Source: Streptomyces sp. SID13031 (GTDB lineage: Bacteria; Actinomycetota; Actinomycetes; Propionibacteriales; Kribbellaceae). From it: a stretch of 64,000 bases of DNA. Made by a program: the position numbers and the translations under genes. Shown piece by piece: positions 46,102 to 59,760 of the stretch. How positions within the stretch are numbered: the first letter of the stretch is position 1; each line of letters opens with the position of its first letter. The notes under the pieces were generated by a model. It worked only from the letters and a program-made list of their open reading frames with translations. It was not told the DNA's origin and made no database searches. The stretch spans positions 1-64,000 of the forward strand of contig NZ_JAAGLV010000009.1 of the NCBI RefSeq assembly GCF_010548305.1. Reading direction: 5' to 3'.

Positions 46102-47280
46102 ATGCTCTCGGATCCCGCCACGCCCAGGTTCGGCGCGAACTACGTCCCGTCGTCCGGGTGGTTCTACAGCTGGCTCGACTACGACCCGGCGGCGGTCCGC
46201 CGGGACTTCGCCGACCTGGCCGGGCTCGGCCTGGACCACGTCCGGGTGTTCCCGATCTGGCCCTGGATCCAGCCGAACCGGGCGATCATCCGCGAGCGCG
46301 CGATCGACGACCTGCTCGATCTGATCGACGCCGCCGCCGAGCACGACCTGACAGTGGCGGTCGACCTGATCCAGGGACACCTGTCGAGCTTCGACTTCCT
46401 GCCGGCGTGGGTGCTCACCTGGCACAAGAGCAGCCTGTTCGAGAGCGGGACGGTCCGCGACGGGCTGACGGCCTACGTCGATGCCGTGGCGCGCGCAGTG
46501 GCGACCAAGCCCAATGTCTTCGCGATCACCCTCGGCAACGAGGTGAACAACCTCTGGCCGGACAGCTCGACCACCCCGGAGGCGTCCACCCGCTGGGCTC
46601 ACGACTTGTTGCTCACGCTGAAGAAAGCCGCGCCCGACGTCCTCGCCCTGCACTCGGTCTTCGACGATGCCTGGTACAAGCCAGACCACCCCTTTCTCCC
46701 GGCCGACGTTGTCGACCTGGGTGATCTGAGCACCGTCCACTCGTGGGTTTTCAACGGGGTCTCTCGGGTGGACGGCCCGCTCGGTCCGGCAACCCTGACG
46801 CACGCCGACTACCTGGTCGAGCTCGCCGCCGCCACTTCACTGGATAGTTCACGACCTGTATGGCTGCAGGAGATCGGCGTACCGGGCCCGGATATCCCGA
46901 CGGACCTGCAGGCGGAGTTCACCCGCCGTACCGTCGAGCTGGTCATCGACAACCCCGCCCTCTGGGGTGTCACCTGGTGGTCCTCCCACGACATCGACCG
47001 GCGCCTCCTCGACTTCCCCGACCGCGAGTACGACCTCGGCCTCTTCACCGTCGACCACCACCGCAAGCCCGCCGCCCAGGCCCTGGCCGACGTGATCGCG
47101 GAGGTGCGCGCCAACGGCGTACACCCCCGACCGGCCGCGGTTCTCGACGCGCCGCTCAACCCGCGCACCGAACCATCCCGCCGCGCTGAGTTGTCCCCCG
47201 GCAGCGACTTCCACCGCAGCTGGGTGGAAGCCCGCGCCAACGGGCCGGTCCGCATCCGTGTCCCTAACGACAGGACATAG
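46102..47280 (+). CDS. GH5-like (clan A) glycoside hydrolase
   Basis: 392 residues, no signal peptide, so cytoplasmic. TIM-barrel with FGANYVPSSGWFYSWLDY at the N terminus, LDHVRVFPIWPWIQP (strand 2), FAITLGNEVNNLW with the NE acid/base glutamate, and RPVWLQEIGVPG with the nucleophile glutamate, the clan GH-A layout shared by GH5 mannanases and mannosidases. Subfamily cannot be fixed by eye. It probably trims oligosaccharides brought in by the divergent ABC system. Stop codon lies in an inverted repeat shared with the tetR gene. Confidence 0.85.
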   Translation: MLSDPATPRFGANYVPSSGWFYSWLDYDPAAVRRDFADLAGLGLDHVRVFPIWPWIQPNRAIIRERAIDDLLDLIDAAAEHDLTVAVDLIQGHLSSFDFLPAWVLTWHKSSLFESGTVRDGLTAYVDAVARAVATKPNVFAITLGNEVNNLWPDSSTTPEASTRWAHDLLLTLKKAAPDVLALHSVFDDAWYKPDHPFLPADVVDLGDLSTVHSWVFNGVSRVDGPLGPATLTHADYLVELAAATSLDSSRPVWLQEIGVPGPDIPTDLQAEFTRRTVELVIDNPALWGVTWWSSHDIDRRLLDFPDREYDLGLFTVDHHRKPAAQALADVIAEVRANGVHPRPAAVLDAPLNPRTEPSRRAELSPGSDFHRSWVEARANGPVRIRVPNDRT

Positions 47281-47350
47281 CGCCTGTACAGCAGACGGCG
47301 ATCGCCGCTGTGAGCGTGGCGCCTGACCGAACGGCGGACTATGTCCTGTC
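47269..47350. terminator. inverted repeat covering the ends of two convergent genes
   Basis: GACAGGACATAG (47269-47280) and CTATGTCCTGTC (47339-47350) are perfect complements, each containing a stop codon (TAG) of the convergent GH5-like and tetR genes. A GGCGATCGCC palindrome (47297-47306) lies in the loop. Likely bidirectional terminator. Confidence 0.55.
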
Positions 47351-48082
47351 GGTCGGGACAGCCAAACCGTCGATCAGAACCTGGATACCGTCGAGGATGC
47401 GGTCCAGGCCGAAGTCGAAGTCGTCGTCGAGAGTGTCTTCGTACTCCTGGTTGGTGTACATCGCCAGGAGTCGGTCATAGCCGGCCGACTGCAGCCGCGG
47501 CACCAGGAACGTGCCGACCGCCGCCGACTCGACCGGGGCCGAGTCGCTGGCTGCTAGTTGGCGGGCAAGGTTCGCGTAGCTGCGGGCATAGCCGTCGAAG
47601 AGGACGGCACAGCCGAGGGCGTCGTGCTGGCTCAACCCGGTATCGGCCATTACCCCCAGCAGCGTCTCCACCCAGTGCAGCAGGTTGGGCGTGACCGGGG
47701 CGCCACGGATGGGCACCTCGAGCAGCCACGGGCGTTCGGCGTACTGGTCGACCTGGGCCTTCACCCACGCGCGTGCGCCTGCACGCCAGCCGTCGGCCTC
47801 CAGGATGTAGGCCGGAGCGCGCCCCCAAGCTGTCTCCGCGACCAGCACGATCAGCTCGTCCTTCGAGCTGACGTAGCGGTACATCGCATTGGTGGAGACG
47901 CCGAGCTGCGCCGCGATCTTCTGCAGCGAGATGGCCTCGAAACCCTGGGCGTCACCGAACTCGATCCCGGTGGCGACGATCTGGTCGACCGTGAGGGCCG
48001 GCTTCGGTCCGCGCCGCTGGACCGGCTGGACGCCCCAGGACAGGGCGAGGCCGGGCGGTAGCTGCGCCGGCTCCTCACTCAT
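47339..48082 (-). CDS. TetR-family transcriptional regulator
   Basis: 247 residues from the ATG at 48082. A ~20-residue extension is followed by the TetR helix-turn-helix LTVDQIVATGIEFGD...QKIAAQLGVSTNAMYRYVSSKDELIVLVAE, then a TetR_C-type ligand domain. Divergent from a small 2-TM protein and an ABC system, which it probably controls. The ABC genes are broken (see next entries), so part of its regulon is lost. Confidence 0.92.
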   Translation of the reverse strand: MSEEPAQLPPGLALSWGVQPVQRRGPKPALTVDQIVATGIEFGDAQGFEAISLQKIAAQLGVSTNAMYRYVSSKDELIVLVAETAWGRAPAYILEADGWRAGARAWVKAQVDQYAERPWLLEVPIRGAPVTPNLLHWVETLLGVMADTGLSQHDALGCAVLFDGYARSYANLARQLAASDSAPVESAAVGTFLVPRLQSAGYDRLLAMYTNQEYEDTLDDDFDFGLDRILDGIQVLIDGLAVPTDRT

Positions 48083-57243: not shown

Positions 57244-59139
57244 ATGAGCACAATCACCAAGGTCACCGGCGACTTCGACTTCCTCAGCGGCCACTTCGAC
57301 GTGGTCAATCGCGTCCTTAATTCAAGTGGTGAATGGGAGGAGTACGCCGGTACGCATACCGGCCGAACCCATTTCGCCGGAGCGGTCAGCGTCGACGAGG
57401 CGCGGTTCCCGAGTAAGGCGTCGTACGGGATGTCGCTGCGCCTCTACGACCCGGTCGAGAAGATCTGGACCATCTACTGGGTCAACAGCAGGACCGGGAA
57501 GCTCCAGCCGGCGGTCCGCGGGAGCTGGTCGGACGGCGTCTGCACGCTGTACGGCGAGGACGATCTCGGCGATCGGATGATCCCCGTCCGGCTGCGCTGG
57601 TCGGACGTCACCGACGAGACCGCGCACTGGGAGCAGGCGTACTCCGAGGACGGCGGCGAGACCTGGCAGACCAACTGGACAATGGACCTCACCCGGCGAT
57701 CTACCGAACCGCCGGCGCTCGATCTCCCCAAGGTCACCGGCGACTTCGACTTCTTCGTCGGCGAGTGGAACGTGCAGCATCGCAGGCTCCTCGCGCCGCT
57801 GACCGGCAACGACGACTGGCGGGAGTTTCGGGGCACCGCGGAGACCTACACCCTCTTCGACGGCGCCGTCTGCATCGACGAGACGTTCTTCCCGACCGAG
57901 GACTTCGACGGGATGACGGTCCGCCTGTACGACGTGGCGGCCGGCGCGTGGGCGATCTACTGGATCAACAGTTCACGCGGCATCCTGGAGCCGCCCGTGT
58001 ACGGCGGCTTCGGCGCGGACGAGGTCGGGATCCTCGAAGGGCCGGACGAGCACGACGGGCAACCGGTGGACGTCCGGTTCCGCTGGACGAAGGGCGACGT
58101 ACCGGTCTGGGAGCAGTTCTTCTCGACCGACGGCGGCGCGACCTGGGAGAGCAATTGGTCGATGACCTTCACGCCGCGGACAACTTTCCCCAAACTGACT
58201 GGCGACTTCGACTTCCTCAACGGGTACTTCGATGTGCGGCACCGGACCCTCGGCAAGGTGTTCGTCGGCAGCGACGACTGGCAGAGCTTCGAGGGCACGT
58301 GTACCGCACGGACCCACTTCGACGGCGCGATCAGCATCGACGAGATGCAGTTCCCGGGCAAAGCGTCGTACGGGATGTCCGTGCGTTTGTTCAACCCTGA
58401 GAACAAGGAATGGACTATCTACTGGATCAGCAGCAAGACGATGGAGATCTACCCACCCGTGAAGGGTCGCTGGGCCGAGGACGGGAAGTCCTGCTGGCTG
58501 GTCGGCGAGGAGGAACTGGACGGCAAACCGATCCTGTCCAGCTACGCCTGGTCGGAGGTCACCGAGACGACCGCGCACTGGGAGCAGTCCTACTCCGACG
58601 ACGGCGGCGAGACGTGGGAAGTCAACTGGGTGATGGACTTCACCCGGCGCGACGCGGAGCCGCCGCGGGTCGGCATCCCCAAGCCCACCAGCGATTTCGA
58701 CTTCCTGGTGGGCGAGTGGGACATGCACAACGAACGCCGCAGACCCGCACTGGGCGAGCCGGCCGCCTGGTACGAGGTCGAGTCGAAGATGAAGGTCTTC
58801 GGGTACTTCGACGGCGCGATCAGCTTCGACGAGAGCTGGTTCCCGACCGAGGGTTTCCGCGGCGCGACGCTACGGCTCTACAACCCTAAGTCCAAGACTT
58901 GGTCCATCCATTGGATCAACAGCCTGCGCGGCACTCTCGAGACCCCCGTGATCGGCGCCTTCACCGAAACCGGCCAAGGCATCTTCGAAGGCCCCGACGA
59001 GTGGAACGGCCAACCCATCGACGTCCGCTTCGTCTGGACGCCCGGCACGGATCACGCTGCCTGGGAACAACTCTTCTCCACCGACAACGGCAACACCTGG
59101 CACAGCAACTGGAAAATGCGCCACACCCGCACCGCCTGA
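57244..59139 (+). CDS. four tandem DUF1579-like (lipocalin-type) domains
   Basis: 631 residues made of four ~155-residue copies starting at 6, 163, 317 and 480, each beginning KxTxDFDFLxGxW/F and ending with HWEQ-xYSxDGGETW-xNWxMxFTR. Copies 1 and 3 (GHFDV/GYFDV, SYGM, WTIYWxxS) resemble each other more, as do copies 2 and 4 (VGEW, FFPTE/WFPTE, ILEGPDE, WNGQP), so an A-B unit was duplicated. No signal peptide. DUF1579-like domains fold as beta-barrels of unknown ligand. Divergent WYL regulator upstream. Confidence 0.85.
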   Translation: MSTITKVTGDFDFLSGHFDVVNRVLNSSGEWEEYAGTHTGRTHFAGAVSVDEARFPSKASYGMSLRLYDPVEKIWTIYWVNSRTGKLQPAVRGSWSDGVCTLYGEDDLGDRMIPVRLRWSDVTDETAHWEQAYSEDGGETWQTNWTMDLTRRSTEPPALDLPKVTGDFDFFVGEWNVQHRRLLAPLTGNDDWREFRGTAETYTLFDGAVCIDETFFPTEDFDGMTVRLYDVAAGAWAIYWINSSRGILEPPVYGGFGADEVGILEGPDEHDGQPVDVRFRWTKGDVPVWEQFFSTDGGATWESNWSMTFTPRTTFPKLTGDFDFLNGYFDVRHRTLGKVFVGSDDWQSFEGTCTARTHFDGAISIDEMQFPGKASYGMSVRLFNPENKEWTIYWISSKTMEIYPPVKGRWAEDGKSCWLVGEEELDGKPILSSYAWSEVTETTAHWEQSYSDDGGETWEVNWVMDFTRRDAEPPRVGIPKPTSDFDFLVGEWDMHNERRRPALGEPAAWYEVESKMKVFGYFDGAISFDESWFPTEGFRGATLRLYNPKSKTWSIHWINSLRGTLETPVIGAFTETGQGIFEGPDEWNGQPIDVRFVWTPGTDHAAWEQLFSTDNGNTWHSNWKMRHTRTA

Positions 59140-59167
59140 CCCCACAGCCCACCAAGCCCCGGCGGCG

Positions 59168-59273
59168 GCGAGCCCACCACTGGTGGGCATGAACACCTGG
59201 CGGCGGCCGTGAACAGGGTAGACCTTGTTCACGGCCGCCGTTTCCTGTTCATGCCCACCAGTGGTGGGCTCGC
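59168..59273. repeat. 106-bp nested palindrome
   Basis: Outer arms 59168-59195 and 59246-59273 are perfect 28-bp complements. Inner arms 59202-59215 and 59226-59239 are perfect 14-bp complements. They are separated by 6-base spacers, with a 10-base loop. Each outer arm contains its own near-palindrome CCCACCACTGGTGGG, so cruciform or branched RNA forms are possible. It lies between the convergent repeat-protein and ribH genes and may be a bidirectional terminator or a mobile palindromic element. Confidence 0.85.
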
Positions 59274-59289
59274 GACTGCTGGTGCTGGG

Positions 59290-59760
59290 CTATAGGGATC
59301 GGGTGGCGACCAGGGTGGCGAGGGCTGCCTGGGCCGACTCGTAGCCCTTGTCTTCGCGGCTGTCGGGGAGGCCGGCGCGGTCCAGGGCCTGCGGGTCGTT
59401 GTCGCAGGTGAGCAGGCCGAACCCGACCGGTACGCCGGTGTCGACCGATACCTGCATCAGGCCGTCGGTCGCCGCCTGGCAGACGTACTCGAAGTGCGGG
59501 GTATCGCCACGAATCACGACGCCGAGGGCGACCACCGCGTCGTACCCGCCCTTGGCCGCATGCAGCGCCGCGACCGGCAACTCGAAGGAGCCGGGGACCC
59601 GGATCACCTTGTAGTCGGTCACTCCCGAGTCGGCGAGTGCCCGCTCAGCGCCCGCGACCAGCGAGTCGGTGACCTTCGGGTGCCACTGGGCCGCGATGAC
59701 GGCGACCCTGACTCCCTCAGCGTGCGGGATTTCGATCGTGGGTGCTCCACTGCCCGACAT
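59290..59760 (-). CDS. ribH: 6,7-dimethyl-8-ribityllumazine synthase
   Basis: Condenses the pyrimidinedione with dihydroxybutanone phosphate to lumazine. 156 residues. [37 protein letters not shown] and [17 protein letters not shown] carry substrate-binding and catalytic histidine residues. The start overlaps the ribBA stop by one base. Last gene of the rib operon before the palindrome. Confidence 0.97.

Follow-up and report, generated by a model that had tools for sequence, protein, structure and literature searches.

The window, a 64,000-nucleotide stretch of the genome of Streptomyces sp. SID13031 (family Kribbellaceae; G000 in a comparison set of 38 genomes of the actinobacterium Kribbella), carries a 106-bp palindrome at positions 59168-59273, in the gap between two convergent genes. 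The left gene (57244-59139, + strand), which encodes a 631-aa product with BNR/Asp-box matches, stops 28 bp before the element, and the stop codon of ribH (lumazine synthase; 59290-59760, - strand) lies 16 bp past it, according to gene calls from a custom codon model for which 13 window ORFs served as training set. The initial annotation had described two concentric perfect stems of 28 and 14 bp with 6-nt spacers and a 10-nt loop, and direct reading of the sequence reproduces these figures exactly. The left outer arm (59168-59195, + strand, 28 nt) and the right outer arm (59246-59273, + strand, 28 nt) are exact reverse complements, and so are the left (59202-59215, + strand, 14 nt) and right (59226-59239, + strand, 14 nt) strands of the inner stem. 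Between these lie the left spacer (59196-59201, 6 nt), the loop (59216-59225, 10 nt) and the right spacer (GTTTCC, 59240-59245, + strand, 6 nt), which opens a weakly T-rich stretch 3' of the inner stem. The outer arms were also said to be nearly palindromic in themselves, and each indeed holds GCCCACCA-C/G-TGGTGGGC, a perfect palindrome centred on one base. Within the arms sit the terminal hairpins, here termed hairpin A (GCCCACCACTGGTGGGC; 59172-59188 on the left, 59253-59269 on the right), which occur solo at other gene ends too. The left strand of the inner stem is the second copy of a 14-nt unit, GGYGRCCKTGAACA, 20 bp after the first. The ends of the element were checked against a copy of 91% identity in unrelated flanks on contig C123; beyond them the palindrome extends imperfectly outward to 59152-59289, with 82% complementarity.

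The predicted fold is exceptional. RNA folding of 59145-59295 gives -131.7 kcal/mol, compared with an average of -65.7 for shuffled sequences (z = -14.05; 0 of 200 shuffles as good), and DNA folding of 59152-59289 gives z = -14.2. With z = -19.7 (single-base shuffles, 40 per gap; gaps >200 bp trimmed), the hairpin of the window gap is the lowest among 63 convergent gaps of at least 30 bp across 337 kb from G000 plus 400 kb from G030. The only Rfam matches, C4 antisense RNA and MIR7510, both fell below threshold and were attributed to chance resemblance between hairpins.

The element is one of many. The search for further copies suggested in the initial annotation was productive both in the source genome, where C123 carries the 91% copy, C40 one of 80%, and C31, C58 and C48 partial ones, and among relatives, with DNA matches to the element region in 14 of 38 Kribbella genomes, including 23 matching places in G007 (Kribbella catacumbae DSM 19601). 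A single copy at a position conserved in all relatives had been named as the outcome that would speak against a mobile element; instead, the copies are multiple and the ribH gap differs among species. G000 has 20 sites that match the 17-bp terminal hairpin (≤1 mismatch; reversed control 0). Inner hairpins (≤2 mismatches) number 43 in G030, 41 in G007, 15 in G028, 9 in G027, 7 in G001 and 4 in G000, with 0-3 in the other 32 genomes; at least one is present in 22 of 38, and the reversed pattern gives 0 in all 38. Hairpin A, counted as a 21-bp hairpin, was found 57 times in G007, 19 in G000 and 5 each in G028 and G030 (control 0), and is absent from the other 34 of the 38 Kribbella genomes searched. 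These four genomes cluster on a ribAB-ribH tree of 30 of the 38 genomes with a support of 0.98, and those just outside the group (G015, G018, G014 and G037) have 0 or 1 inner hairpins.

Confinement of the whole repeat to these four species was considered and rejected: nested cores of the same spacing, mostly with GGGG-type units, are present at loci of G001, G003, G004, G006, G009 and G027, and only hairpin A is so confined. The core is therefore older than the four-species group, and the counts above are low for such cores, as the GGYG search pattern undercounts those with GGGG-type units. A generic nested motif (≤4 substitutions) was found 5 times in 400 kb of G030 and once in 337 kb of G000 (control 0), with one weak match in 200 kb of G003 and none in G027, G018 or G009 (200 kb each), samples too small to exclude a thin presence. 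Our reading is that the repeat is thinly spread across the genus and multiplied in one small group, of which hairpin A is an addition. Spread outside Kribbella was judged from a single strict inner-hairpin pattern, which in a genome-contig collection (84,980 species by its description) had 7 matches, every one of them in K. catacumbae; that collection may omit records close to the window, and G030 and G028 did not appear. Phage, plasmid and viral-contig collections held no copy of the element. In a codirectional gap of G027, three nested GGGGGCC-unit cores form a local row (L032, 1169-1566) with intervals of ~170-190 bp.

When 30 stretches, each 106 nt long and most of them G007 copies, were aligned (11 of 41 left out for length or partial match; a few of the 30 with one degenerate end), the consensus arm was SCGAGCCCACCASTGGTGGGCTYGRACACC-AAGC-GGYGRCCKTGAACA, which contains two copies of the 14-nt unit ending TGAACA at a 20-bp interval. 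Several columns of the unit are invariant in 60 of 60 arms, and the inverted doublets with a spacer that characterize REPs and REPINs are present. G030 copies differ in that their outer end is mostly of the CCAGAASTGGCGACC type instead of hairpin A. In G030 and G007, inner-stem pairing within copies is higher than in any of 500 between-copy shuffles, and in G028 it ties with the best of them; outer-unit pairing shows no excess in any of these three genomes, spacer pairing is above shuffles only in G030, and distal-end pairing only in G007, all judged with shuffles that ignore kinship among copies. In two genomes the inner arms of a copy match each other better than expected by chance.

Other arrangements of the modules were also seen. 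In G028, head-to-tail 20-bp units (GGCGACCTTGAACACCACGT) adjoin a core copy (L207, 2441-2538), so the 20-bp unit can also sit in tandem. Contig 97 of G007 (L071, 97-279) carries two tandem cores with one common hairpin A, which is what unequal recombination between terminal hairpins would give. Near 1480-1535 of L021 the palindrome of a solo hairpin A extends outward (GTGTGGCGAGCCC...GGGCTCGCCACAC), and an upstream GAACAAGGTGTG stretch resembles the core of full copies.

Placement of the repeat is strongly biased towards gene 3' ends. Among 101 inner-hairpin copies (43 of 43 in G030, 15 of 15 in G028, 40 of 41 in G007 and 3 of 4 in G000), 2 at edges were unclassified, and the remaining 99 fall into 56 convergent, 41 codirectional and 2 divergent gaps. 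Background gaps of at least 60 bp in 737 kb, counts that include a few elements, number 41 convergent, 203 codirectional and 105 divergent; they replace another background (9, 70 and 54 of 133 gaps, respectively) that came from element-selected loci. The median distance of the 78-nt core is 23 bp to 3' ends and 188 bp to start codons. None of the inner-hairpin copies lies within a called gene, and in the fetched loci 1 of 59 exact hairpin A copies does (L008, a low-scoring call).

The defining feature of a bidirectional intrinsic terminator, a stable hairpin directly 3' of stop codons and usable from either strand, is present. The commonest bases after the inner stem (202 arms, both strands) are GTTTGGTGTTCA, a weak U tract, short and interrupted by G; the window element yielded 0 sites in a simple terminator scan. 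Term-seq in Streptomyces clavuligerus found transcript ends at hairpins that are U-rich, U-lacking or bidirectional (PMC8269248). Given the 3'-end placement, the hairpins and the occurrence in S. clavuligerus of ends with and without U tracts, the most likely role of the element is bidirectional termination or 3'-end protection. The candidate bidirectional terminator of the initial annotation is, then, largely right in position and anatomy, namely 3'-end placement and fold, and termination would be the activity that these features predict. The repeated GGYGRCCKTGAACA unit could instead be a site for a protein that recognizes it, serving chromosome organization rather than termination, as the unit columns identical in all arms and the additional tandem units of the G028 copy at L207 might suggest. 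However, placement is tight just 3' of stop codons and the hairpin form persists despite differences in unit sequence among species, both of which favour a role in RNA, and we regard protein sites as improbable.

Copies are sharp-edged. The window and C123 copies match over their 106 bp with outside flanks at chance, and the eight closest pairs in G007 are 93-96% identical within unrelated flanks and have their boundaries at GCGAGCCC and GGGCTCGC; in one subgroup of G007 copies a short additional GGCCGAAAGGYC hairpin is present on one side. The closest pair in G030 reaches only 85% over 106 nt, so copying there looks old. These edges bear on the simplest account, that the element is an ordinary bidirectional terminator and that its likeness to others is convergent, produced by selection for hairpins without copying. 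Strong hairpins are indeed general in convergent gaps (z < -4 in 22 of 63; the corresponding counts are 23 of 245 for codirectional and 3 of 109 for divergent gaps). Also, at a site with a solo hairpin A (L013), unrelated hairpins were seen by eye 3' of the same left gene in G030, G028, G037, G014, G018 and G015, only G030 aligning across both flanks. Convergence does not sit with 91-96% identity over ~106 bp, loops included, in unrelated flanks, or with a 21-bp hairpin that has 57 copies in one genome and none in 34 relatives. In its strict form this account is already refuted by the sharp-edged copies, and overall we consider it very improbable.

Miniature inverted-repeat transposable elements (MITEs) are short, have inverted repeats and no called gene, and reach high copy number in few species. 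The Kribbella repeat is like them in size, inverted repeats and copy pattern, and a short, palindromic, sharp-edged element of this kind might be moved through its terminal inverted repeats by the DDE transposase of some insertion sequence. It differs from them in that none of 35 copies with both ends carries an exact direct repeat of 3-10 bp as a target-site duplication; a 2-bp direct repeat was found at the ends of 1 of 35, below the shuffled mean. Divergent gaps, moreover, hold only 2 of 99 copies, and no cognate insertion sequence was noticed in passing. A DDE-mobilized MITE appears unlikely.

The ribH gap provides a direct comparison between species. G030, a sister species, has the same gene arrangement as the window (hisE at 68059-68319, ribH at 72519-72986), and hisE is found in 0 of 30 ribH loci, each covering 1.5 kb beside ribH. 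As geography, the remark in the initial annotation that the element marks the edge of the block between ribH and hisE is accurate. Its reading as a scar of that block was rejected, because G030 shares the block but has its own version of the element at that place, a related nested palindrome lacking hairpin A. Around ribH, the flanks of the window element and those in G030 are 87-90% identical. The window copy itself is 0.91 identical to the C123 copy and 0.61 to the G030 ribH-gap copy over 106 nt (0.89 and 0.69, respectively, over the 78-nt core). We read this contrast as probable copying or conversion since the species split; alternatively, similarity could have been lost in G030 alone. By eye, G015 and G014 have almost nothing in the gap, and the hairpins that G028, G037, G008 and others have there are unrelated.

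Inheritance is nevertheless visible at some sites. For 17 orthologous pairs the mean identity is 0.79 between orthologs, 0.76 to paralogs of the same genome and 0.73 to non-orthologs of the other genome; in 11 of 17 pairs identity to the ortholog is above the mean for paralogs of the same genome, and in 7 of 17, including four G028-G030 pairs, the ortholog takes first or second place among the cross comparisons. Some copies are therefore inherited and others carry little ortholog signal, and full concerted evolution is weakened as an explanation by the inherited orthologs. Two elements ~1.07 kb apart recur in each of G030, G028 and G007 (L166, L205 and L217), with flanks paralogous to each other at about 75-80%; this is a long-retained pair.

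Turnover is evident where sites can be aligned. Five G030 copies lie in a block syntenic with G000, which has the element at one of these places, another palindrome family at one and none at three; in two of the three element-free places the right flank aligned only further on. No clean empty site was found in this comparison, since intergenic DNA diverges too fast. A solo hairpin A in G000 (L016) faces an arrangement of hairpin A, core and hairpin A in G030 (L177), and looks like the product expected from deletion between two A ends. Another solo site (L019) faces a full copy of the G030 type (L168) and is not of deletion form.

A second palindromic family was noted in the window at 47259-47360. 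It has the form TGTCCC(G/T)A-N-CGACAGGACATAG, inverted, and is ~102 bp in length; the outer ends of its 13-mer are separated by exactly 84 bp in 9 of 9 inspected copies (search ≤110 bp). Strand hits of the 13-mer number 54 in G000, 119 in G007, 11 in G030, 1 in G028 and 0-2 in the rest, with 1 each in G005, G007 and G037 for the reversed control. At this convergent gap, G030 has the family of the 106-bp element instead.

The repeat is multi-copy, modular, sharp-edged and located at 3' ends, with hairpin A in only four of the genomes searched and turnover at orthologous sites. The best explanation, to which we assign a probability of roughly 0.7, is a REPIN-like, non-autonomous palindromic repeat that is thin in Kribbella, has multiplied in one species group and serves as bidirectional terminators. 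A full copy, as in the window, comprises two inverted terminal hairpins (module A, or the other end type in G030) around a structured core, in which a 14-nt unit recurs at 20-bp intervals and is followed by its mirror image. Nearly all surviving copies are at the 3' ends of genes, with convergent pairs the most frequent setting, and there a transcript arriving from either side could fold into the same long hairpin and may be terminated or stabilized at its 3' end. New copies might arise by duplicative movement or gene conversion, and deletion between two A ends could leave a solo hairpin A. On this model the repeat would both serve as, and replace, bidirectional terminators. A stronger version is possible, and we put it forward tentatively at slightly less than even odds: that a RAYT-less actinobacterial analogue of REPINs spreads by colonizing or replacing terminators, with exchange among gene ends outpacing divergence of the flanking genes, such that the terminators of a species group are being rewritten from a shared, self-homogenizing repeat through an as yet undescribed mobilizer or conversion process.

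As far as our searches extended, a RAYT-less palindromic repeat that occupies and replaces gene-end hairpins is new for an actinobacterial genus. Titles and abstract openings revealed no Kribbella literature on such repeats, in a search whose coverage excluded most subscription journals, and absence from print is not claimed. REP-like anatomy and placement in an actinobacterial group without a Y1 enzyme raise the question of the mode of copying. This system makes that question testable, because the ribH gap holds the element, the G030 version, unrelated hairpins or almost nothing depending on species, so that the hairpin at one gene pair is naturally swapped between sister species.

Among known systems, REPINs are the closest. 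PMC3116915 describes them as inverted pairs of REPs which form hairpins and have an association with RAYT tyrosine transposases, and regards single REP units as remnants, some of them from deletion between the pair. PMC3733652 places REPs mostly between convergent and codirectional genes, reports GTAG or CGTC tags for most of them, ties the GTAG kind to a tyrosine transposase and describes the CGTC kind as lacking a dedicated one; such dispersed palindromic repeats are reported there mainly from Proteobacteria. A short palindromic unit in many extragenic copies, the basic REP/REPIN feature, is found in Kribbella. The inverted units, structured spacer, 3'-end location and solo units fit the anatomy in both papers, so these genomes could hold a true REPIN whose mobilizing RAYT was lost or lies outside the searched genomes. 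Against this, the Y1_Tnp tyrosine transposase (PF01797) was sought in 8 genomes, among them the four that carry hairpin A, and found in none, when 5 of 14 control genomes were positive, and a Y1 transposase was rejected as mobilizer for these eight. Nor is there a fixed tag beside hairpin A: GTAG was found at 0 of 58 and CGTC at 8 of 58 copies within 8 nt on either strand, raw counts that include, among the copies scored as solo, some belonging to full elements with a degenerate core. A true REPIN therefore seems rather unlikely, and the REP/BIME-like candidate of the initial annotation holds for position and anatomy but not for tag or transposase. We accordingly call the repeat REPIN-like and do not file it as a REPIN, as it has neither the fixed tag nor the Y1 enzyme family.

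The REPIN-like repeat of Kribbella differs from REPINs further in that its core is a mirrored repeat of 20-bp period and its host is actinobacterial; actinobacteria go unmentioned in the main text of either PMC3116915 or PMC3733652. With REPINs (PMC3116915) it shares inverted short palindromic units around a spacer, the capacity to fold as one long hairpin or a clover, an extragenic location, and solo units, one Kribbella case of which resembles deletion between a pair. With the GTAG and CGTC families of REPs (PMC3733652) it shares a location mostly in convergent and codirectional gaps 3' of coding regions, and it differs from both in having no fixed tag of either kind. The hairpin ends of S. 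clavuligerus (PMC8269248) resemble it as GC-rich hairpins 3' of the stop codon, with bidirectional ends there; the Kribbella hairpin is distinguished from these by being a dispersed repeat that is conserved in sequence.
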